Shown: positions 1 to 24,137 of the stretch, piece after piece
Position numbering within the stretch: the first letter of the stretch is position 1
How the letters are laid out: every line of letters starts with the position of its first letter
From: a virus
Direction: 5' to 3' (one strand)
Length of the DNA stretch: 24,137 nt
IMG/VR virus record: IMGVR_UViG_3300050821_004857
Span: 1 to 24,137 of that record
The notes under the pieces: model-generated
Databases searched by the model: none
What the model saw: the letters and a program-made list of their open reading frames with translations, nothing else
Told to the model about the DNA's origin: nothing
Translations under genes and position numbers: made by a program

Positions 1-1114
1 CGCGCCAGAGCACGTCGTGCCCGCCCGCGTGGTCGGGAAAATCGAGCGCATAGCTCGCGAGGTCGATCGTGGACGCGAGGTCGAGCCCGGCGTAACACTC
101 GCGTTTGTCAAGGTCAGCGGCCTGGCCGGGCGCGTTATCCCAGACGGCGAGGTCGATCGCGCGGCCCGCTTGCTGCGATTGCTGATTGAGCCGGTATTGC
201 CGGAACGCGCGCTCGGCCGCGGGGTTCTCGATCGCCTTAGCGCACTCTGCGCGCAGTATCCGCGGGTCGAGATAGTCGCCGAGCGCCGGGTTCGCCAGCT
301 TCCAAACGCGCTCGTCTGTCCAGTCGGCGTCGAGCGGCACGCTATGCAGCACGACCAGCCGCGAGCGGTCTAGCTCGGGATCTTCGATCACGCGCTCGGA
401 CCATGCGCGCTCGCTGGCGGCGAACCCGCTCGGGTCGTTATCGGCCGTGGTCGCGAGCACGAGCACGGGTTGCGCCCGCGTGCCGAACCCGGTTCGCAGC
501 GCGTCGTATAGATTCCGGTCGGGTTGGGTCAACAGCTCATCGATATAGGCGCCGTGCGGGCCGACGCCGAGCGCGCCGAGCGCATCGCCCGCGGTCACGG
601 CGAAGACGCTCGCGGTCTGCTCATCGATGATCCGGCGCGCCGCTTTGGCGATCGCCAGCCGCGCCGCGAGGATCGGCGACAGTTGCACCATGCGGACGGC
701 GACCAGATACGCGAGCGCCGCTTGATCCTTATCGAGCGCCAAACCGTAAATCTCGGCGGATTCCTCGTCGTCGGCGCAGAGCAGGTAAAGCATGATCCCG
801 GCGATCAGCTCGGTTTTGCCGTTTTTGCGGCCCGTGCTCAGATAAAACTCTCGGTAGCGGCGGACGTAGCGCTGCCATCCGGCGTCGAATTCGACCGTGC
901 CGAACAGCGGCACGATAACCTCGTCGCGTTCCCAGTCGGCCGGGATGAAAGCGCGCCGAGCCCAATCGCCCTTAGTGTGAACGAGCAGCTCGGTAAAAAA
1001 CGCGAGCGCGTGCCGCCAGCGCGGGCGGCACAGATGCTCGCCGCGGCGCATACAGACGTCGCCATCGAACACGCGGCGGCACGGCGGGAATCGGCGCCGA
1101 TCGGCTCGGGCCAT
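1..1114 (-). CDS. terL: Terminase large subunit (TerL), 3' end beyond the left edge
   Basis: This is the packaging motor ATPase and nuclease that drives phage DNA into the prohead. The 371 visible residues hold a Walker A-like motif LSTGRKNGKT at about residues 92-101, a Walker B-like GAYIDEL near 188-194, a coupling motif ATT at 221-223, and the start of the nuclease domain (GLDLAST, first acidic residue) close to the window edge. The rest of the nuclease domain lies outside. ATG at 1114 is the first start after an in-frame TGA only two codons upstream, so the N-terminus is well fixed; no strong ribosome site is visible. TerS lies two genes upstream (2018-2482), the usual packaging order. 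The fold assignment is firm; the subfamily (Terminase_1-like) is inferred from motif spacing. Confidence 0.93.
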   Translation of the reverse strand, partial: MARADRRRFPPCRRVFDGDVCMRRGEHLCRPRWRHALAFFTELLVHTKGDWARRAFIPADWERDEVIVPLFGTVEFDAGWQRYVRRYREFYLSTGRKNGKTELIAGIMLYLLCADDEESAEIYGLALDKDQAALAYLVAVRMVQLSPILAARLAIAKAARRIIDEQTASVFAVTAGDALGALGVGPHGAYIDELLTQPDRNLYDALRTGFGTRAQPVLVLATTADNDPSGFAASERAWSERVIEDPELDRSRLVVLHSVPLDADWTDERVWKLANPALGDYLDPRILRAECAKAIENPAAERAFRQYRLNQQSQQAGRAIDLAVWDNAPGQAADLDKRECYAGLDLASTIDLASYALDFPDHAGGHDVLWR

Positions 1115-1268
1115 AGCTCATAATGCCGTCCCGCCGGAATGCCCGCCAGAGCGCGCCCCGTTCGCGCCTACCGGCCCGGCGCTAATGGTCACTTATGAGC
1201 GGACCCGGCTCGATCTCGGGCCGTTAGAGCCCCGCTTAGCGCCGCGCACGATACGATCGGCGGTAAGT

Positions 1269-1307
1269 GCCCGCGCCCCTTCGGTTTGGTCCCTTCGGGG
1301 CGCGGGC
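1269..1307 (-). promoter_or_regulatory. Hairpin presenting the GAAGGGACCAA motif in its loop
   Basis: Perfect 11-bp inverted repeat GCCCGCGCCCC (1269-1279) with GGGGCGCGGGC (1297-1307) and a 17-base loop. On the minus strand the loop carries GAAGGGACCAA (1286-1296), the same 11 bases that precede four genes here. No ATG, GTG or TTG follows within the usual distance, so it is not acting as a simple ribosome-binding site. There is no T-tract, so an ordinary intrinsic terminator is uncertain. Confidence 0.6.
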
Positions 1308-1424
1308 GCGGCTAGCGGCGGCTCGGTCGGCAATCGAGCCGCGGGGGAATCCGAGACTGGCGGTACTCGCGGGCAAGTGCTCGGATCGCGCGGATTGGCG
1401 GGCAGACCGCAGGCACGACGACGA

Positions 1425-1455
1425 GCCCCGGCCGGGCTACGTTCCCGGCCGGGGC
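1425..1455 (-). terminator. 12-bp GC hairpin downstream of the 104-aa gene
   Basis: Perfect stem GCCCCGGCCGGG (1425-1436) and CCCGGCCGGGGC (1444-1455) with a 7-base loop, about 65 bases past the stop of the 1522-1836 gene. It is very stable and symmetric, so it could act in both directions. No T-tract follows on either strand, as is common for hairpin terminators in high-GC actinobacteria. The terminator role is inferred. Confidence 0.5.
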
Positions 1456-1504
1456 CGTCTAGCGAGCGCCCGCCGTTGCATGGGGACCGGCGGGCTCGGT
1501 CAGT

Positions 1505-1533
1505 CGCGGGCGCGCGCCGGGCTAGCGCCCGCG
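1505..1533 (-). terminator. 9-bp hairpin spanning the stop codon of the 104-aa gene
   Basis: Perfect stem CGCGGGCGC (1505-1513) and GCGCCCGCG (1525-1533) with an 11-base loop. The TAG stop at 1522-1524 lies in the loop. It may terminate or stabilise the transcript end together with the hairpin at 1425-1455. Confidence 0.35.
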
Positions 1534-1836
1534 CCCTACGCGGGTCGTGATCGAGTGCGCCGTAAACTGCCGAATCATGTAATCGCCCGCCAGCGCCGCC
1601 GCCAGATGTTCCGGCAGATGCTCGCGCAGGTCGGCGAGCGCGTTCGCCTCGCCCTCGATCCCGAATTCGCGCCCGTAGGCTTGCCGGTCATCGGGCGTGA
1701 TCTTAAACGTGATCTCGCAGATAACCCAGCTCGGCCGGGCCAGATCGAGCGGCTCGGCTTCGGGGTCGTGCGGCTCGTGCGGATCGCACGGCTCGGGCAG
1801 CTCGGGCACGGCGGCGCCCGCATCGCTACTCATCAT
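1522..1836 (-). CDS. Hypothetical 104-aa protein between TerS and TerL
   Basis: I do not recognise a family. The protein begins MMSSDAG and has an acidic, proline-rich N-terminal third. A compact region with alternating hydrophobic residues follows (WVICEITFKI, about 38-47), then helical segments and the C-terminal sequence MIRQFTAHSITT. No membrane segment or metal site is visible. ATG 1836 (or the next codon) is chosen because the GAAGGGACCAA motif ends 5 bases upstream. Its place between the two terminase genes suggests a packaging or head-related accessory, but nothing in the sequence proves this. Hairpins follow its stop. Confidence 0.75.
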   Translation of the reverse strand: MMSSDAGAAVPELPEPCDPHEPHDPEAEPLDLARPSWVICEITFKITPDDRQAYGREFGIEGEANALADLREHLPEHLAAALAGDYMIRQFTAHSITTRVGRGR

Positions 1837-1841
1837 GACGG

Positions 1842-1852
1842 TTGGTCCCTTC
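1842..1852 (-). promoter_or_regulatory. Start-associated motif copy for the 104-aa gene
   Basis: Minus strand reads CGGAAGGGACCAACCGTC before ATG at 1836. The GGAAGG part can pair only partly with the actinobacterial anti-Shine-Dalgarno, while the conserved ACCAACC part is not explained by ribosome binding. Confidence 0.7.
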
Positions 1853-1967
1853 CGGTAATCAGCCCGTCGCGAGTGCGCGACCGGCGGTTACGAGAATACG
1901 GCTAGCGGCGCGCCGAAACTGCCCGAACGCGCGCAGACCAAACCCGGCCCGCTAACGTAGCTGATCA

Positions 1968-2017
1968 GCGAGCCCGCGCGGTCTGGTCGGTTGGTCCCTT
2001 CCGGCGCGCGGGCTCGC
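1968..2017 (-). promoter_or_regulatory. 13-bp hairpin after terS with the GAAGGGACCAA motif in its loop
   Basis: Perfect stem GCGAGCCCGCGCG (1968-1980) and CGCGCGGGCTCGC (2005-2017), starting one base after the terS stop codon (2018-2020). The 24-base loop contains the motif (1991-2001) in the minus-strand sense. No start codon lies close downstream; the next gene begins 130 bases further on, behind its own copy. It could be a terminator, an anti-terminator or a protein-binding RNA hairpin. Confidence 0.6.
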
Positions 2018-2482
2018 CTAACTCAACAGCCGCCCGGCCGACAGACCGCCGCCGATCGCGTGCTCGACCTTAAGCGGCTGCCGCGCCGATGGCGTGAACC
2101 CAAACTCGCGAGCCCACATGCGGACCGCCGCGGACGCATCGCGCACCATCGCGACCGCCGGGTTTTTACGCGGCCCCGGATCGCCGTCCCGCCCGGCCAC
2201 GATCGGCCCGGTCGCCTCGACCTCGCGCACGAGCCGCGCCAGCAACGCGACCGATTCGCAATACGCCGCCAGCGCCGAAGCGTCGACCGCCTTAGCCGTC
2301 CCCATCGCGACCAGATCGGGCAGCACGCGCCGCCATTCCTCACGCGCGCCCGCGGTCAGCCAATCGGGCTCGGTCGGCAGCTCATCACGCGGGCGCGGCT
2401 CATCACGGTTGATCCGATACGGCCGGTCGCCCTTAAGCACCCTAAGCGCGGTCGGCGTCGGCGCCGGTCCCGACCTACCCAT
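2018..2482 (-). CDS. terS: Terminase small subunit, P27 family
   Basis: TerS recognises phage DNA and hands it to TerL for cutting and packaging. This 154-aa protein has the features of the P27 family: LKGDRPYRINRDEPRP near residues 16-31, a W-containing segment after it, a helical core with AREEWRRVLPDL and DASALAAYCES, then KNPAVAMVRDA and the C-terminal FGFTPSAR. Length is typical. The start ATGGGTAG overlaps the stop of the upstream 67-aa gene by 8 bases. It is followed at once by a motif-bearing hairpin. TerL is not the next gene: a 104-aa gene and a long gap intervene. Confidence 0.9.
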   Translation of the reverse strand: MGRSGPAPTPTALRVLKGDRPYRINRDEPRPRDELPTEPDWLTAGAREEWRRVLPDLVAMGTAKAVDASALAAYCESVALLARLVREVEATGPIVAGRDGDPGPRKNPAVAMVRDASAAVRMWAREFGFTPSARQPLKVEHAIGGGLSAGRLLS

Positions 2483-4530: not shown

Positions 4531-4592
4531 TAGACGGCAGCGTGCCCGCCGCCGATGGGGGGGTTATCAGCGGCGGGCACGCGGCCCGTCTA
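4531..4592 (-). terminator. Long hairpin between early operon end and packaging module
   Basis: Perfect 13-bp stem GCGTGCCCGCCGC (4540-4552) and GCGGCGGGCACGC (4570-4582), extended by a second helix TAGACGG/CCGTCTA at its base. The 17-base loop contains seven consecutive G on the plus strand. It begins at the stop codon of the 4590-5075 gene, so it is best read as the early operon terminator, and it separates two modules. The outer 4496-4589 gap holds nothing else. Confidence 0.65.
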
Positions 4593-5311: not shown

Positions 5312-5511
5312 ACGTGCCGCCAGTCGGCGAGGTAGGTTGCGGCGCGGATCGGCTCGGCGCAGCCCGCGCAGACCGCGATCAGCGGGTAAGCGGTCGGGTC
5401 GAGCAGCGATGCGGGCTCGCTCGTTACGGTCCGCTTGACGCTCGCGGGGTCGGGTCGGCACTCGTGATCGAGCCCGCCCGCTAGGACGGTTAGGGTTGGT
5501 CTTCCGCTCAT
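5308..5511 (-). CDS. Hypothetical 67-aa protein behind a start-associated motif
   Basis: Begins MSGRPTLTVLAGGLDHEC and has a CAGC pair near residues 49-52 (VCAGCAEPIRAATYLADW), which with the earlier Cys/His could form a small zinc site. ATG 5511 is chosen because the motif GAAGGGACCAA ends 8 bases upstream. The first coding bases contain a degenerate second copy (GGAAGACCAACC, about 5493-5504), so motif-like sequence lies on both sides of the start codon. ATGA overlap with the next gene. Function unknown. Confidence 0.7.
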   Translation of the reverse strand: MSGRPTLTVLAGGLDHECRPDPASVKRTVTSEPASLLDPTAYPLIAVCAGCAEPIRAATYLADWRHV

Positions 5512-5519
5512 GTTGGGGG

Positions 5520-5530
5520 TTGGTCCCTTC
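5520..5530 (-). promoter_or_regulatory. Start-associated motif copy for the 67-aa gene
   Basis: Minus strand reads CGGAAGGGACCAACCCCCAAC before ATG at 5511. It lies in the short gap after the stop of the DUF3846-like gene, so it may allow independent translation of the downstream set 4590-5511. Confidence 0.7.
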
Positions 5531-5548: not shown

Positions 5549-6229
5549 TCAGTTGGCTGATTGCGGAGGGTGACCCGGCGGGCCGGGAATGATCGCAATC
5601 GGGGTTACCATGCCCGCGGCGTCGTTTCCGAACCGGAAATACTGCTCGCCATCGGGCGCGGTCGGATCGTATGCCTCGACTTGCCAGCTCTGCCCGGCGG
5701 CTTCGGCCCGCTCGACTTGCTCGCGGTGTCTGGCGGCGATGGTGGCGCCGTCTACGTGCGGGCCGTGCGGTTTGCCGGGTTCGGGGTCGTGCTGCCCGAT
5801 CCATGTCTCGTCGGCGACCTCGCCGTCGATGTAGAGCCGCATTCGTAGGCGCATCACGGGGCGGCGCGGTTGCGGGCGGGCGCCGGGGTCGGCGATGCTC
5901 CATAGCCGCTCGGGCACGTCGACCTCGTTTGGTCCCGAGCGGCCGAGAAACACGATCACGCCGAGCAGGATCGGCCCCGGCCCGCGGTGCCAGCCGCCGA
6001 GCTGGCGGGCGATCGTGTCGGCGACAAAATTCGGCGGCTCGTTCCGCTCGGCGGCTTCCTCGGCGGCGTAGGCGACCCAATCGCCGCCAGCGACCGGGCA
6101 GCAGAGGTAACCGCCGATCGCCTCGTGTATGGCGGCTGCCATCGCGGCGGGCTCGGCGGGTAGGGTCACGAGCGCCGTCGAGCCGTTCGGCTCAACGATC
6201 AGCGCTCGCGGCCCTACGCCGCTAGGCAC
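5549..6229 (-). CDS. DUF3846-like protein, 226 aa
   Basis: The N-terminal 110 residues resemble DUF3846, a family common in actinophages with unknown role: ALIVEPNGSTALVTLP, then AIGGYLCCPV, a short turn, and a later ILLGVIVFLGRSGPNEVDVP. The C-terminal half is additional: RLRMRLYIDGEVADE, a proline-glycine stretch with a histidine-rich patch, a helix (AARHREQVERAEAAG), and a final WQVEAYDPTAPDG part. The GTG start at 6229 overlaps the upstream 35-aa gene's stop by 8 bases. Longer than a bare DUF3846 domain, so it may be a fusion. The family assignment is from pattern memory. Confidence 0.75.
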   Translation of the reverse strand: MPSGVGPRALIVEPNGSTALVTLPAEPAAMAAAIHEAIGGYLCCPVAGGDWVAYAAEEAAERNEPPNFVADTIARQLGGWHRGPGPILLGVIVFLGRSGPNEVDVPERLWSIADPGARPQPRRPVMRLRMRLYIDGEVADETWIGQHDPEPGKPHGPHVDGATIAARHREQVERAEAAGQSWQVEAYDPTAPDGEQYFRFGNDAAGMVTPIAIIPGPPGHPPQSAN

Positions 6230-6655: not shown

Positions 6656-7065
6656 GCGGTGCGCCCGCCGGTCGCCGCGCGCCATTCGGCGATAACGCTC
6701 GCGGCGATCCGGCCGCGCTCGGCGACCGTGACGCCGGGCTGGTCGGCTGCCCACGCGCGCAGCGCGACCCGCTCGGCCGGGGTTAGCGGCTGATCGCCGT
6801 TCGCGGTCGGCGGGCGGAATGTCGCCGCCGGGGCCGAGCTGCCGCGGCTCGTGGCGCCGGGTTTCCGGCCGCGCTTGCCCGGCTTGCCGTTCGCCGCTAT
6901 GCGGGCGGCGTCGACGTAGCGGGCGAGCGCGCCGCGCAGTTTCCCGGCGTTCGGCGCCGATAGGTCGATCTCGTATGCCTGGCCGTCGAGCCCGAATCTG
7001 ATCGTGTCTTCGGCGGCCGAGCCGTCTAGGTCATCGACCAACAGCACGTTCGTAATCGTGGTCAC
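6652..7065 (-). CDS. lsr2: Lsr2-family nucleoid-associated protein
   Basis: Lsr2 is the actinobacterial H-NS-like protein that oligomerises on AT-rich, often foreign, DNA and silences it. The N-terminal dimerisation domain is well kept: LLVDDLDGSAAEDTIRFGLD and AYEIDLSAPNAGKLRGAL (residues 8-47). The C-terminal DNA-binding domain is present too: LTPAERVALRAWA and ERGRIAASVIAEWRAA, with the minor-groove RGR at 117-119. At 137 aa it is longer than host Lsr2 (about 112) because the linker is extended and holds an extra AT-hook-like KRGRKPG at 64-70. GTG start; GAAGGGACCAA ends 5 bases upstream. It may silence host or competitor genes, or control phage genes. Confidence 0.9.
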   Translation of the reverse strand: MTTITNVLLVDDLDGSAAEDTIRFGLDGQAYEIDLSAPNAGKLRGALARYVDAARIAANGKPGKRGRKPGATSRGSSAPAATFRPPTANGDQPLTPAERVALRAWAADQPGVTVAERGRIAASVIAEWRAATGGRTA

Positions 7066-7070
7066 CTGAT

Positions 7071-7081
7071 TTGGTCCCTTC
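7071..7081 (-). promoter_or_regulatory. Start-associated motif copy for lsr2
   Basis: Minus strand reads CGAAGGGACCAAATCAG before GTG at 7065. This copy has CGAAGGG rather than CGGAAGGG, matching the copy in the 1269-1307 hairpin. Confidence 0.7.
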
Positions 7082-15870: not shown

Positions 15871-15923
15871 AGGTGAACCCTCGATCCGGGGTCGGCGGTC
15901 AGCAAAGCGGGTAACCGCTTCGG

Positions 15924-16053
15924 GTCTGACCTACGCGACCCGGCGAGGGTAGGCGAGCCGGTTACGCCGGGCTCGGTACGGCGGCGAGGTCTGGCCTACG
16001 TGACCTCGCGAGGGTCGGCGAGCCGATCACGCCGGGCTCGGTACGGCGGCGAG
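15924..16053 (+). repeat. Two tandem 65-bp direct repeats
   Basis: Copies 15924-15988 and 15989-16053 match at 58 of 65 positions. Each starts with GTCTGRCCTACG and contains a CGAGCC/GGCTCG dyad (15954-15975 and 16019-16040). The same GTCTGACCT-type half site recurs as the inverted repeat at 16185-16250, which suggests one DNA-binding protein recognising all of them. Confidence 0.8.
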
Positions 16054-16334: not shown

Positions 16335-16368
16335 TTACGCACGGTTTACGCACGGCGGAAGGGACCAA
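16335..16368 (+). promoter_or_regulatory. 11-bp tandem repeat plus start-associated motif copy
   Basis: TTACGCACGG occurs at 16335-16344 and again at 16346-16355. Directly after is CGGAAGGGACCAAACCA, with the conserved 11 bases at 16358-16368, 4 bases before ATG 16373. This is the only rightward copy of the motif. A TAGACT at 16325-16330 is a weak -10 candidate. Confidence 0.65.
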
Positions 16369-16372
16369 ACCA

Positions 16373-16654
16373 ATGTTCAAAGTCAGCTACTACCATCACG
16401 CGGGCGGCGACCGCTACCGCGTGTCGCGCGCGTTCGGCACGATCGAGCTAGCGCAGGAATTCATACACGTCAACGCGCTAGTCTGCGCGCTGCCCGGCGT
16501 GCTGTTGATCGCGGTCGGCTCGACCGACCCGGATTCGGCATGGTGCCAGGAACACGGGCACGACGGCTTTATGCCCGGCTCGGTCTGCGCGCTCTGCGAT
16601 GCGCTCGCCGCCGCGGGCGCGGTCGCCGACCCGTTCGCTCGGGTGACCTCATGA
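16373..16654 (+). CDS. Hypothetical 93-aa protein, first gene of the integrase cluster
   Basis: Begins MFKVSYYHHAGGDRYRVSRA; a longer frame reaches back to 16280, but the motif copy fixes ATG 16373. It has a helix (TIELAQEFIHVNAL), a hydrophobic stretch (VCALPGVLLIAVG) and a C-terminal CQEHGHDGF...CALC with Cys/His pairs that may bind zinc. No family recognised. ATGA overlap with the next gene. In this position one might expect a repressor, but no helix-turn-helix is visible. Confidence 0.7.
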   Translation: MFKVSYYHHAGGDRYRVSRAFGTIELAQEFIHVNALVCALPGVLLIAVGSTDPDSAWCQEHGHDGFMPGSVCALCDALAAAGAVADPFARVTS

Positions 16655-18811: not shown

Positions 18812-18853
18812 GCGAGCCGCGCCCCGTGAGCGGAATTCCGGGGCGCGGCTCGC
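18812..18853. terminator. Strong bidirectional hairpin terminator between convergent genes
   Basis: Perfect 15-bp stem GCGAGCCGCGCCCCG (18812-18826) and CGGGGCGCGGCTCGC (18839-18853) with a 12-base loop. It sits between the stop of the rightward cluster (18801) and the stop of the leftward secreted-protein gene (18866). No T-tract on either side. Confidence 0.8.
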
Positions 18854-19630: not shown

Positions 19631-19936
19631 CTACGCGCCGTCTTCGCCGCCGGGTCCGTTCATAGCTGGCGGCTCGCCAGCGCCGCCGTCCGTTGATCGT
19701 GGCAGCGCTGGCGGGCCGTTCGGCGGCGGGCGCCGCGCGGCGATGTATCCGCCGATGTACCCGCCGACCGCGCCGACCGCCGCGCCTAGCACGGTCGAGA
19801 GTGTCGCGACTTCCTCGGTCGTGACGGTCCGGTCTTTATTCAGGAACGCGAAAACCTCGCCGATGATCACGGCGGCGACCACGCCGAGCGCGAGCACGGC
19901 GGCGGCGACCCCGCGCCAATCGACCCCCCGGCGCAT
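19631..19936 (-). CDS. Holin, two-helix type
   Basis: Holins open the inner membrane at lysis. 101 aa with two membrane helices: residues about 10-32 (VAAAVLALGVVAAVIIGEVF) and 46-67 (LSTVLGAAVGAVGGYIGGYI), separated by a short charged turn (NKDRTVTTEE). The C-terminal tail is Pro/Gly-rich and partly encoded by a 34-bp repeat found again in the gap. The start overlaps the fibre gene's stop as TAATG. Late operon, two genes after the endolysin; the assignment is from topology and place, as holins share little sequence. Confidence 0.8.
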   Translation of the reverse strand: MRRGVDWRGVAAAVLALGVVAAVIIGEVFAFLNKDRTVTTEEVATLSTVLGAAVGAVGGYIGGYIAARRPPPNGPPALPRSTDGGAGEPPAMNGPGGEDGA

Positions 19937-21459
19937 TAGCCGGGCAGCGGGAACGGCGGCGGCAGCGGGTCGAGCCGGTTAGTCTCGCGGCGGCGCTCGC
20001 CGGTCGGCGGCCACGGCGGCGCGCTGGTCGGAACGAACCGGATCGCGTCGAGAAACAGCACTTGAAATGAGGTCGCCCCCGGCCAGTCGGACGGGGCCGA
20101 GTACATCTGTAGCTGATAACCCTGCACGATCATCACTTGCGCGCTTACCCGCCCGCCGCCCGGCGCGACCACGATCGCCGGGCATGTGTAGATCGACGTC
20201 GGGCAGTAGAACCCGAGCGGGCACGCGCCGATAACGGTTCCGGCGTTCGGCAGCCCGCCGCCGGTCCATTGGATATAGCCGCCAATCCAGCAGACGCCGC
20301 GGTGATAGTAGAACCGCAGCGGCGGCTCGGGCGGACCGGCGACGTTGCCGTCGACCCATCCGGGGCCGAGCGAGATCGGCACGCCATACGGCGCGGCGAC
20401 CAGCTCGGCGCGGGTTACCTCGCCGTCAGCGCCGCGCGCGCCGGTCGGCCCGGCCGCGCCGGTCGGTCCCTGCGGCCCCGGCTCGCCCTGATCGCCGAGC
20501 GGGCCGGGCGGTCCGGTCGGTCCCTGCGGGCCGAGAAACCCGATCGGCCCGGCCGGTCCGGTCGGCCCTTCGGGGCCGGTCTGCCCGTCGACGCCGGGCG
20601 CGCCATCCGGGCCGGGCGGTCCCTGCGGCCCCTGCGGGCCGAGAATCGTTCCGATATCGACCCATCCGAGCGGGTTATTCACCTGCGAAACGAACCCGTA
20701 TAGCTGGCCGTCGAGCGGGTCGCCGTCGCGATGGTAGAGCAGAGCATCGCCGATCCGGCACTGATAAGCGGGCTGGCCGGGCCGGTCCCAATCGGCGGGC
20801 AGATACCCGGTCGGCGGCAGATCGGCCGGCGTTTTCGTGACGCCGAACTGCCCGACAATGATCGCCGCGGCGCCATCCTGGCCGGGCGGACCTTGCACGC
20901 CGGTTTGCCCGGTCAGACCTTGCACGCCCTGCGGCCCGGCCGGTCCCGCCTCGCCGCGCGCGCCCTGCCCGCCCGGTATGCCCTGCGAGCCGGTCGAGCC
21001 CTGCGGCCCCATCTCGCCGCGGGCGCCCTGCGGCCCCGGCGGTCCCTGCCCGCCCTGCGGCCCGGCGGGTCCGCTCGGCCCCGGCGGGCCGGGCGGCGAT
21101 TGCAAGACGCCGGGCGTAATCCACGGCTGCCCGCCGGGGTTGAGCCCCTCGCCCACGAACGTCCACAGCTCGCCGAGCGGGTCGAAAATCAGCGACCAGC
21201 CGAGCTGTATTTGCGTGTCGGCGACCGGGCGCCCGAGCCCGTCCCAATCGGCCGGGATCATCCCATCGGGCGGCAGCTCGGCCGGGGTCCGGGTCGCGCC
21301 GAACGTGCCGACAATGATCGTCGCCTGCCCGCCGGGGCCGGGCGGTCCCTCCGGTCCCTGCGCGCCGGGCGGGCCGGGCGGTCCCTGCTCGCCCGGCATT
21401 CCCGAGATCACGTCCACGAATCCCGGCGGGCGCGGCACGGTTACATCTATCTCGCTCAT
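19936..21459 (-). CDS. Collagen-like tail fibre or baseplate protein, 507 aa
   Basis: Three Gly-X-Y collagen blocks (about residues 21-44, 122-196 and 274-345) alternate with two copies of a 75-residue module: [19 protein letters not shown] at 46 and [19 protein letters not shown] at 198, each followed by a PADWD sequence and a W/Y-rich end. The C-terminal 150 residues are beta-rich ([37 protein letters not shown]) and are likely the receptor-binding or trimer tip. ATG 21459 is supported by ATGA overlap with the baseplate gene; a longer frame upstream is a shadow. Collagen-like stalks form trimeric fibres in many actinophages. Confidence 0.85.
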
Positions 21460-21830
21460 CGGGTCACGTCCGGTTCTACGGTTACGGCGCCCTTGATCAC
21501 GGTCAGCACGCGACCGCCGGGAAACGAGAGCTGCATATCCCAGCGGCCCGGCGGCGTATTCTGCGATTGCCCGGCGGACAGATGCGCGAACACGTAATTG
21601 GGTAGCACGATCGCGCACGTCAGATCGACCGAAGCGCGGTCATCGGGCGAGCGGCGGATCTGCGCGGCGACCGCCGTAACCTGCGCGAGATCGTATGGCT
21701 CGGTCGCATCGGCGTCGACCCATAGCCGGAATGCCCACGAGCGCGAGTCGCCCCGGTACACGTAGAGCGGGACGTCCTGCGGCGCCTCGCCCGGCGGCGA
21801 GGTCGCCCGCGCTTCGGTCGCCGCGGTCAT
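21456..21830 (-). CDS. BppU-like baseplate or minor tail protein, 124 aa
   Basis: A single beta-rich domain: [19 protein letters not shown], then [43 protein letters not shown] and [18 protein letters not shown]. This order (YRGDS..F.L, AQIR, W/Y-D, V..G.V.V..DVTR) is common in phage tail-fibre-associated domains like the BppU N-terminus. It probably links fibres to the baseplate. ATGA overlap with the endolysin stop sets the start. Assignment from pattern, not search. Confidence 0.7.
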
Positions 21831-22591: not shown

Positions 22592-22749
22592 TAGCCCTCG
22601 CCCCCTACCTCGTCGTCTTCGGCGTCGGGGTCCGGTCCCGCGCCCTCGTCGTGTAGCTCGCCGTCTTCGGGCTCGCCGGGCTCGGGCTCGGGCGGCTCGG
22701 TCACGGTCGCCCGGACCGGCGGCACGAATGGCGCGTGTGCGGTCGTCAT
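22591..22749 (-). CDS. 52-aa acidic mini-protein between fibre and endolysin genes
   Basis: The frame fills the gap with TAATG overlaps on both sides. It begins [20 protein letters not shown] and is then very acidic (EPEPGEPEDGELHDE, PDPDAEDDEVGGEG), probably disordered. No membrane segment. It may be a small tail component or a spacer peptide; nothing more can be said. Confidence 0.6.
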   Translation of the reverse strand: MTTAHAPFVPPVRATVTEPPEPEPGEPEDGELHDEGAGPDPDAEDDEVGGEG

Positions 22750-24137
22750 TACTGATTACCTCCATAGGTCGTCGCTTCGCGGGCTGGCGAAGCGATAAAG
22801 CGGCTCAATCGCGAGCCGCGGAATGTGATCGTCTGCGCGCCGGTCGCCGACCATCGGGCAGTGAGCCCGACAGTCAAGTCGGCGCCCGGCGTGACCGCCG
22901 AAGTATCGATCTGGCTTACCGCGCCGATACTCATATTTCCGGCCGTCCACGTCGAGTGCGCGGGCCGGGGTGACATGAGCGCTTCGGTCCAATGCAGAAT
23001 GAGCGCCGTCGAAACGACTTGATAGAACGAGCGCAGCGCCACGGCAAACGGCGCGTTTGCCTGCCAGTTGCTTACGGCGAGGTCGATATACCGATCGGTT
23101 AGCGCGGCGTTGAATCGCTGCCCGGCGACGAGCAGCCCGCTACCCGCCCAGGTTCCCGAGCCCACGGCGTGAACCTCAAACCAGCTACCGGGTATTAGCT
23201 CGCCCGCCGGTATGACCCATAGCCGGGTAACCATGATCGCTTGCGTGACCGACCCGGCGACCGGGAACGAGCCGCTATCGGATTGGAATGTGCCGGTCGC
23301 CGCGCTCGGCGGTCCCTGCGGGCCGGGCGGTCCCTGCTCGCCCTGCGGCCCGCGCGGTCCCTCGATACCGGGCGGACCTTGCACGACGGCCGGGCTAAAC
23401 CATTCGCCCTGCGGCCAGTCGGCCCCGGCGTATGTCCAGAGCGCGCCGCTCGGCTCGTAAACGAGACTCCATCCGATCTCGACTTGAGTCGCGGTCGCCG
23501 GTCGGCCGGGGCCGTCCCAATCCGCCGGAATGAGCCCGCCCGGCGGCAGATCGGCGGGCTCGGTTTGCTGCCCGAACGTGCCCACGATCAGCGTCGTCTG
23601 ACCGGCTTCGCCCTGCGGTCCGCGCGGCCCTTCCGGTCCGGTCGGCCCGGCCGGTCCCTGCGGTCCGGGTCCGCCGACCTCGCCCGCCGGTCCCTGCGGC
23701 CCCGTCTCGCCCGGCCCGCCCGCCGGTCCTTCGGGGCCGACCCCGCCGGGCGGTCCGCTCGGGCCGGGGTCGCCCTGCGGTCCGGGCGGTCCGCCGGGCT
23801 CGCCGGGCGGACCCGGAACGCCGCTCGGTCCCTGCGGCCCGGCCGGTCCGGGCGGGCCGGGCGCGCCGGGTCCGTAGTCTGGCGCCCGCGGCGTTAGGGT
23901 CATGTCCGCGGCCGAGTCGGCGCCCGCCGGTATCTCGACCTCGCCGAGCATCACGCCGTGCCGGTCGGGGTCGGGCGCGAGCACGGCGAGCCGGAATGTC
24001 GCCGACTCGACCTCGACAACTTCGGCCCATAGCTCGTCGGTCCGGTCGTCTTCGGGATCGCCGGGCAGCACGGGCACGAGCACGGCGACCGGCGAAGCGA
24101 GCACGGCGATCGAGCCGTCTTCGGCATCGGCGAGCGC
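22749..24137 (-). CDS. Collagen-like tail fibre protein, 5' end beyond the right edge
   Basis: 462 residues are visible and the frame is open to the window edge, so the true start lies outside; the first GTG (24104) is unlikely to be the start. An N-terminal beta domain ([19 protein letters not shown]) comes first. A long Gly-X-Y region (about visible residues 90-178) follows, then one copy of the [18 protein letters not shown] module, which also occurs twice in the 19936-21459 fibre. A short collagen block comes next, and a C-terminal beta-rich tip ([40 protein letters not shown]). TAATG couples it to the acidic mini-gene. Confidence 0.85.

Follow-up and report, generated by a model that had tools for sequence, protein, structure and literature searches.

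Background

The closest described counterparts of the locus analysed here are the start-associated sequences (SAS) of actinophages. In cluster K, for which conservation beyond pairing with the anti-Shine-Dalgarno (anti-SD) has been argued, these are short, over-conserved, asymmetric repeats at the ribosome-binding position of some of the genes, and the inverted repeats upstream of them (ESAS) were argued not to form RNA hairpins (PMC3203893). The role of SAS in actinophages, either as plain ribosome sites or as factor-binding sites, has been debated since 2011. Outside the phages, the STAB-SD of Bacillus cry3A is an SD without initiation for which 30S binding and stabilisation of the mRNA were proposed (PMC4113751), and a polypurine-dependent stabilisation was described for the katG mRNA in mycobacteria (PMC2358910). 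The repeated motif of the present locus shares the above repeat traits of the cluster K SAS. Two of its copies lack a start codon and lie in hairpin loops, which may point to a decoy or a message-stabilising element.

Genome fragment and gene context

The window, i.e., the whole stretch of DNA analysed, comes from a soil virus in IMG/VR; it is a linear fragment with a length of 24,137 bp and 71% GC. It encodes an Lsr2-like protein, a type usual for actinobacterial phages. The TerL matches among genome contigs reached only about 40% and were scattered over many phyla, so that no host could be assigned. In the collections searched, the same locus was carried by one near-identical contig alone (L001/L008). 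The terminase region is organised as follows:

1..1114, minus strand: N-terminal part of terL (terminase large subunit; the gene is complete in L001)
1115..1521, minus strand: non-coding gap of 407 nt upstream of terL, with a chain of hairpins including HP1
1522..1836, minus strand: 104-aa orphan gene between HP2 and HP1 (codon-position GC 0.72/0.49/0.84)
2018..2482, minus strand: terS (terminase small subunit; PF05119, E 3.8e-24; phrog_83, E 5.6e-34)

The PHROG and Pfam searches gave no match for the 104-aa gene, and a search for its relatives returned the near-identical contig alone. Elsewhere in the window, two minus-strand genes (19936-21618 and 22749-24104) have collagen-like Gly-X-Y repeats with a 9-nt periodicity and probably encode tail-fibre proteins. 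A 65-nt unit is present in two head-to-tail copies, 89% identical (15923-16052), directly preceding the block of plus-strand genes with the start motif at 16358, and is a possible operator or replication region.

A repeated motif at gene starts

The 11-mer GAAGGGACCAA occurs in the window in six exact copies. The first-pass annotation had described it as a motif that starts genes, and this was confirmed for four of the six, located 5-9 nt upstream of an ATG or GTG:

1842..1852, minus strand: start-associated copy, ATG at 1834-1836, 104-aa gene
5520..5530, minus strand: start-associated copy, ATG at 5509-5511, 67-aa gene
7071..7081, minus strand: start-associated copy, GTG at 7063-7065, Lsr2-like protein
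16358..16368, plus strand: start-associated copy, ATG at 16373, 93-aa gene of the plus-strand block

These four copies are unstructured, the longest perfect stem enclosing them being 3-5 bp. The motif is predicted to pair over 8 bp with the anti-SD at -10.2 kcal/mol, as calculated with the textbook actinobacterial 16S 3' end; the same computation gave -10.1 kcal/mol for the cluster K SAS and -10.8 kcal/mol for the cluster EF SAS. The ACCAA tail of the motif lies outside the pairing and is kept in the loop copies too. Because of its ribosome-site position, an anti-SD pairing like that of the K and EF SAS, and a tail conserved beyond this pairing, GAAGGGACCAA is, as judged from the sequence, a Shine-Dalgarno-like start-associated sequence of this phage, of the SAS kind found in cluster K and EF actinophages. 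A partial motif, GGGACCAAAC, was also seen in a 10-bp hairpin at 5905-5943 within the coding frame of a weakly DUF3846-like gene (5549-6229); it may be there by chance.

Two start-less copies in hairpin loops

The remaining two copies have the orientation of the minus-strand genes and are exposed, as had been noticed earlier, in hairpin loops closed by perfect stems of 11 and 13 bp:

1269..1307, minus strand: HP1, perfect 11-bp hairpin GCCCGCGCCCC / GGGGCGCGGGC with the 17-nt loop GAAGGGACCAAACCGAA, between the 104-aa gene and terL
1286..1296, minus strand: start-less motif copy in the HP1 loop, exact GAAGGGACCAA
1968..2017, minus strand: HP2, perfect 13-bp hairpin GCGAGCCCGCGCG / CGCGCGGGCTCGC with a 24-nt loop, starting at the first base past the terS stop
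1991..2001, minus strand: start-less motif copy in the HP2 loop, exact GAAGGGACCAA

Indeed, no ATG, GTG or TTG opening a frame was found within 22 nt downstream of either loop copy, in line with the first-pass statement that they precede no start codon. Two of its other statements on the hairpins had to be corrected. Instead of flanking the terS-104aa-terL segment, they are inside it, with HP2 between terS and the 104-aa gene (132 nt upstream of its SAS gene) and HP1 between the 104-aa gene and terL (154 nt upstream of the terL start), together bracketing the orphan gene. The stems, taken before to be unrelated in sequence, have in common an 8-bp block, GCCCGCGC/GCGCGGGC, that is in register with the motif in both. 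For the resemblance between the 5' arms, P was 0.006 against random segments of the window and 0.03 against its other hairpin arms. In view of this shared block, HP1 and HP2 may be paralogous, one element having been copied and diverged, instead of having arisen independently. A scan for the shared stem block together with the motif found no further hairpin copy, the near-identical contig excepted.

Relatives and other phages

In the TerL relatives at 62-78% identity (L009-L016), GAAGGGACCAA is absent. One of them, G008/L010 (TerL 77% identical), has the variant CGGAAGGGACACC upstream of three genes and one start-less copy, CGGAAGGGACCCGG, in a hairpin loop (L010:2297-2334; a stem of 9 bp, or of 13 bp with a G-U pair). 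This hairpin is located between terS (1157-1573) and terL (6988), 112 nt upstream of an SAS gene, and its stem differs from those of HP1 and HP2. The gene that follows it is an orphan, for which a search for relatives found none. Among 232 distinct GAAGGGAC sites across all the loci examined, the combination of a start-less copy with a strong hairpin loop was limited to HP1, HP2 and G008/L010.

In the relative L009 a different start motif, AGAGAGGTAACC, is repeated, and hairpins lie about 50 nt upstream; at L009:4725-5190, the repeated start motif CCCAGAGAGGTAACCACC and similar upstream hairpin blocks were seen ahead of small genes. Strong motif-less hairpins are present in the terS-terL interval of L009 and L012-L014, and their homology to HP1 and HP2 is not demonstrable. 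An identical 15-bp hairpin with a 6-nt loop and no motif is found upstream of terL at L012:2513-2548, L013:1199-1234 and L014:1823-1858.

A scan for the motif-before-ATG pattern gave mostly single chance matches and exposed G001/G002/G003, G005 and G004/G006 as phages with repeated AAGGGACC. In three other phage groups, represented by L205 (G001), L208 (G005) and L211-L213 (G006), AAGGGACC with an A/C-rich spacer is a repeated gene-start motif. The unrelated phage G001/L117 has 13 start-associated AAGGGACC copies and one start-less copy in an inverted repeat between convergent genes; in the motif strand the stem of this repeat contains an A-C mismatch, and only the other strand, via a G-U pair, gives a perfect stem. 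It lends the pattern weak and strand-ambiguous support; relatives of the L117 endolysin, looked for to test its hairpin, were not found. A start-less copy at G006:101608 was discarded because it is within a coding frame. In the cluster K phage Anaya, start-less SAS copies are outside hairpins, and no SAS copy lies in a stem of more than 5 bp.

Chance estimates

Of random 11-nt positions of the window, 0.5% are enclosed by a perfect stem of 11 bp or more, compared to 0.02% when the flanks of the motif are shuffled. With the random-position null, finding two of the six copies in such stems has a probability of about 4e-4; this null gives the fair figure because GC-rich hairpins are frequent in the window, which has eight perfect stems of that minimum length, compared to approximately 2.4 in Markov shuffles. 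Hairpins without the motif were found at gene ends at 4540-4582 (13 bp, immediately past the stop codon of a gene that ends at 4590) and at 18812-18853 (15 bp, between convergent genes). Across five phages with such a start motif, all four intergenic start-less full-motif copies lie in a long inverted repeat (the L117 case being imperfect), compared to none of about 30 start-associated copies. The presentation of the motif in loops looks selected. As roles of the loops, the first-pass annotation had put forward sequestration of a shared factor, decoy action or anti-termination; all three stay hypothetical.

Folding, strand preference and a competing hairpin

HP2 folds better in sense (-43.3 kcal/mol, z -6.4) than in antisense (-37.8 kcal/mol, z -3.9), and so does the L010 hairpin (-35.6 against -29.0 kcal/mol), and both gain G-U pairs in that strand. 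HP1 has no energy advantage in sense (-33.6 kcal/mol, z -4.0, against -35.9 kcal/mol, z -3.0, in antisense), and the L117 hairpin is better in antisense (-36.5 in sense, -48.1 kcal/mol in antisense). The 407-nt gap (1115-1521) is more structured in sense, with a z of -5.3 compared to -2.35 in antisense. Weak GG/CC pairs are predicted within part of the loop. Another loop of the 407-nt gap, GTCCCCATGCAA (1468-1495), has 5 nt that could pair with the motif in the HP1 loop.

An alternative structure also makes use of one arm of HP2:

1946..1974, minus strand: alternative 11-bp hairpin (with G-U pairs, sense strand), sharing the 3' arm of HP2 and extended by GACCAGACC/GGTTTGGTC

Its 54-nt version has a z of -3.4, and the 11-bp part a P of 0.047 by shuffle. 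In a 191-nt context of HP2 the two are nearly isoenergetic (-94.7 kcal/mol with HP2 forced and -93.7 kcal/mol with the alternative forced), and the predicted structures of the growing transcript alternate between them. With a GC content of 71%, this predicted switch is a lead and not a result. The sequence GGGTTTGGTCTG (1936-1945, minus strand) shares the gap with HP2 and participates in the competing hairpin. Outside the copies, it alone on the minus strand is complementary to the motif tail, and this single anti-motif place gives no sign of a dedicated antisense partner. The whole window was without a match in Rfam up to E = 1. No T run follows HP1 or HP2, whereby the U tract that accompanies the GC-rich hairpin of an intrinsic terminator is absent. 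Simple scans for promoters and terminators gave negative results, with no sigma-70-like promoter on the plus strand.

Interpretation

The reading favoured here, tentatively, is that HP1 and HP2 are intercistronic hairpins of the minus-strand terS-104aa-terL transcript which display a start-less ribosome-binding element and might act like a STAB-SD or a decoy. Docking of the 30S subunit, or of a factor reading the start motif, on the loop would occur without initiation, and the hairpin with its docked partner would serve as a local stabiliser or processing barrier, setting the expression of the downstream genes (the 104-aa gene and terL); on abundant late transcripts an additional decoy effect might be expected. 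A ribosome at the terS stop, to which HP2 is directly adjacent, would cover the 5' arm of this hairpin, so that the folding of HP2 may depend on terS translation. The explanation is consistent with the start use of the motif at four genes, its predicted anti-SD pairing and the ACCAA tail kept in the loops, and with the dichotomy between unstructured start copies and start-less copies in 11- and 13-bp stems. A start-less loop copy is found again between terS and terL in G008/L010 on another stem, and HP2, the L010 hairpin and the terL leader are better folded or more structured in sense; precedents exist in STAB-SD and in the katG mRNA stabilisation. On the other hand, the energy of HP1 is not better in sense and that of the L117 hairpin is better in antisense, the known STAB-SD are near 5' ends and undescribed in the loops of strong stems, and the weak GG/CC pairs in the loop part and the near-equal competing hairpin at HP2 are unfavourable as well. 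Moreover, a recent functionless duplication is possible since one near-identical contig alone carries the locus.

The main rival is a gene-end hairpin with an incidentally copied loop, that is, HP1 and HP2 as ordinary terminators lacking the U tract or mRNA 3'-end hairpins, being paralogous duplicates with an incidental copy of the motif. This is somewhat unlikely. The window does have other gene-end hairpins without the motif (4540-4582 and 18812-18853), HP2 starts at the terS stop with 8 bp of stem common in register, and the L117 hairpin is between convergent genes; however, the U tract is absent, the L010 hairpin is 112 nt ahead of a gene and not at the end of a gene of the same strand, and the motif recurs in the loop of the relative on an unrelated stem. 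It is very improbable that the juxtaposition arose by chance in a hairpin-rich genome of 71% GC: although long stems are frequent in the window and L150 is one chance-like start-proximal case, the probability for two of six copies is already low by random positions and far lower by shuffled flanks, and the arrangement is repeated in G008/L010.

Three other readings are each less likely than the main rival. As an RNA sponge, the loops would titrate a phage or host RNA-binding regulator of the start motif in the manner of CsrB/RsmZ for CsrA. One motif at the ribosome sites of several genes and in non-coding hairpin loops, conserved positions beyond the anti-SD pairing and the highly structured sense strand of the 407-nt gap would fit this, but the terminase transcript has no more than two loop copies, separated by 700 nt, the target copies are unstructured, there is no candidate binder and Rfam found no known RNA, which makes a sponge clearly unlikely. 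The inverted repeat with its central motif could instead work at the DNA level, as a protein site, a recombination boundary or a packaging site near the terminase that brackets a moron-like orphan gene. The position of HP1 and HP2 around the orphan gene between terS and terL, and of the L010 hairpin among orphans in that interval, agrees with this idea; since the motif is one-directional and start-associated elsewhere, and the full L010 stem requires a G-U pair and hence RNA, it is still less likely. Even less probable is an antisense function, in which the loop of a plus-strand RNA, TTGGTCCCTTC, would repress phage ribosome sites by loop-to-SD kissing like the 6C/B11 sRNA or the icaR 3'-UTR. 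TTGGTCCCTTC is perfectly complementary to these sites by construction, the L117 hairpin is perfect in the antisense strand only, via its G-U pair, and precedents are the C-rich loops of B11 (PMC10470900) and the UCCCCUG motif of the icaR 3'-UTR (PMC3868564). Against it, the neighbouring genes are all on the minus strand, the scan found no sigma-70-like plus-strand promoter, HP2 and the L010 hairpin prefer sense, and the 407-nt gap is far less structured in antisense.

If the favoured explanation of a start-less ribosome-binding element in intercistronic hairpins is extended, the locus could represent a class of RNA elements of phages, each with a conserved start-less SAS copy in an intercistronic hairpin loop and with freely changing stems. 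By binding the 30S subunit or a dedicated start-motif factor, such elements would control the neighbouring genes, with HP2 coupled to terS translation via the stop codon and the competing hairpin; this wider proposal is doubtful. A start-less full motif in a hairpin loop separates binding from initiation, and therefore the question of the SAS role becomes directly testable.

Comparison with known systems

In comparison with the regulatory RNAs, the locus is similar to the CsrB/RsmZ sponges (PMC7652899, PMC4005645), as far as the parts of these accounts considered here describe them, in that an SD-like motif is placed on non-coding RNA competing with ribosome sites. It differs from them in having two hairpins rather than many, inside an operon, and no known CsrA partner; compared to the multiple GGA loops and the CsrA-family protein typical of these sponges, HP1 and HP2 offer two loops with GGGA. 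The 6C/B11 sRNA and the icaR 3'-UTR, with their RNA base-pairing to the SD, are comparable only in the antisense reading, whereas the sense strand of the window holds the SD itself and not its complement.

Closer to the locus are the actinophage SAS. As an over-conserved repeat of about 11-13 bp just upstream of several starts (four exact copies), the window motif belongs with the cluster K SAS in the way it works; its sequence, GGAAGGGACCAA, differs from the cluster K consensus GGGATAGGAGCCC. The cluster K ESAS is a 17-bp imperfect inverted repeat just before the SAS and the start, while in HP1 and HP2 the motif is inside the repeat and a start is absent. The cluster EF Microbacterium phage SAS, GGGAAAGGACCCC (PMC7302621), resembles the window motif in its purine core followed by ACC, its position and the predicted anti-SD pairing; in the sections of that report considered here, start-less hairpin-loop copies are not described. 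Finally, the STAB-SD are located near the 5' end, as opposed to the strong intergenic hairpin loops of the window, and the loop copies resemble them, by sequence only, in being able to pair with 16S rRNA (predicted over 8 bp) and in lacking a start codon (none within 22 nt).
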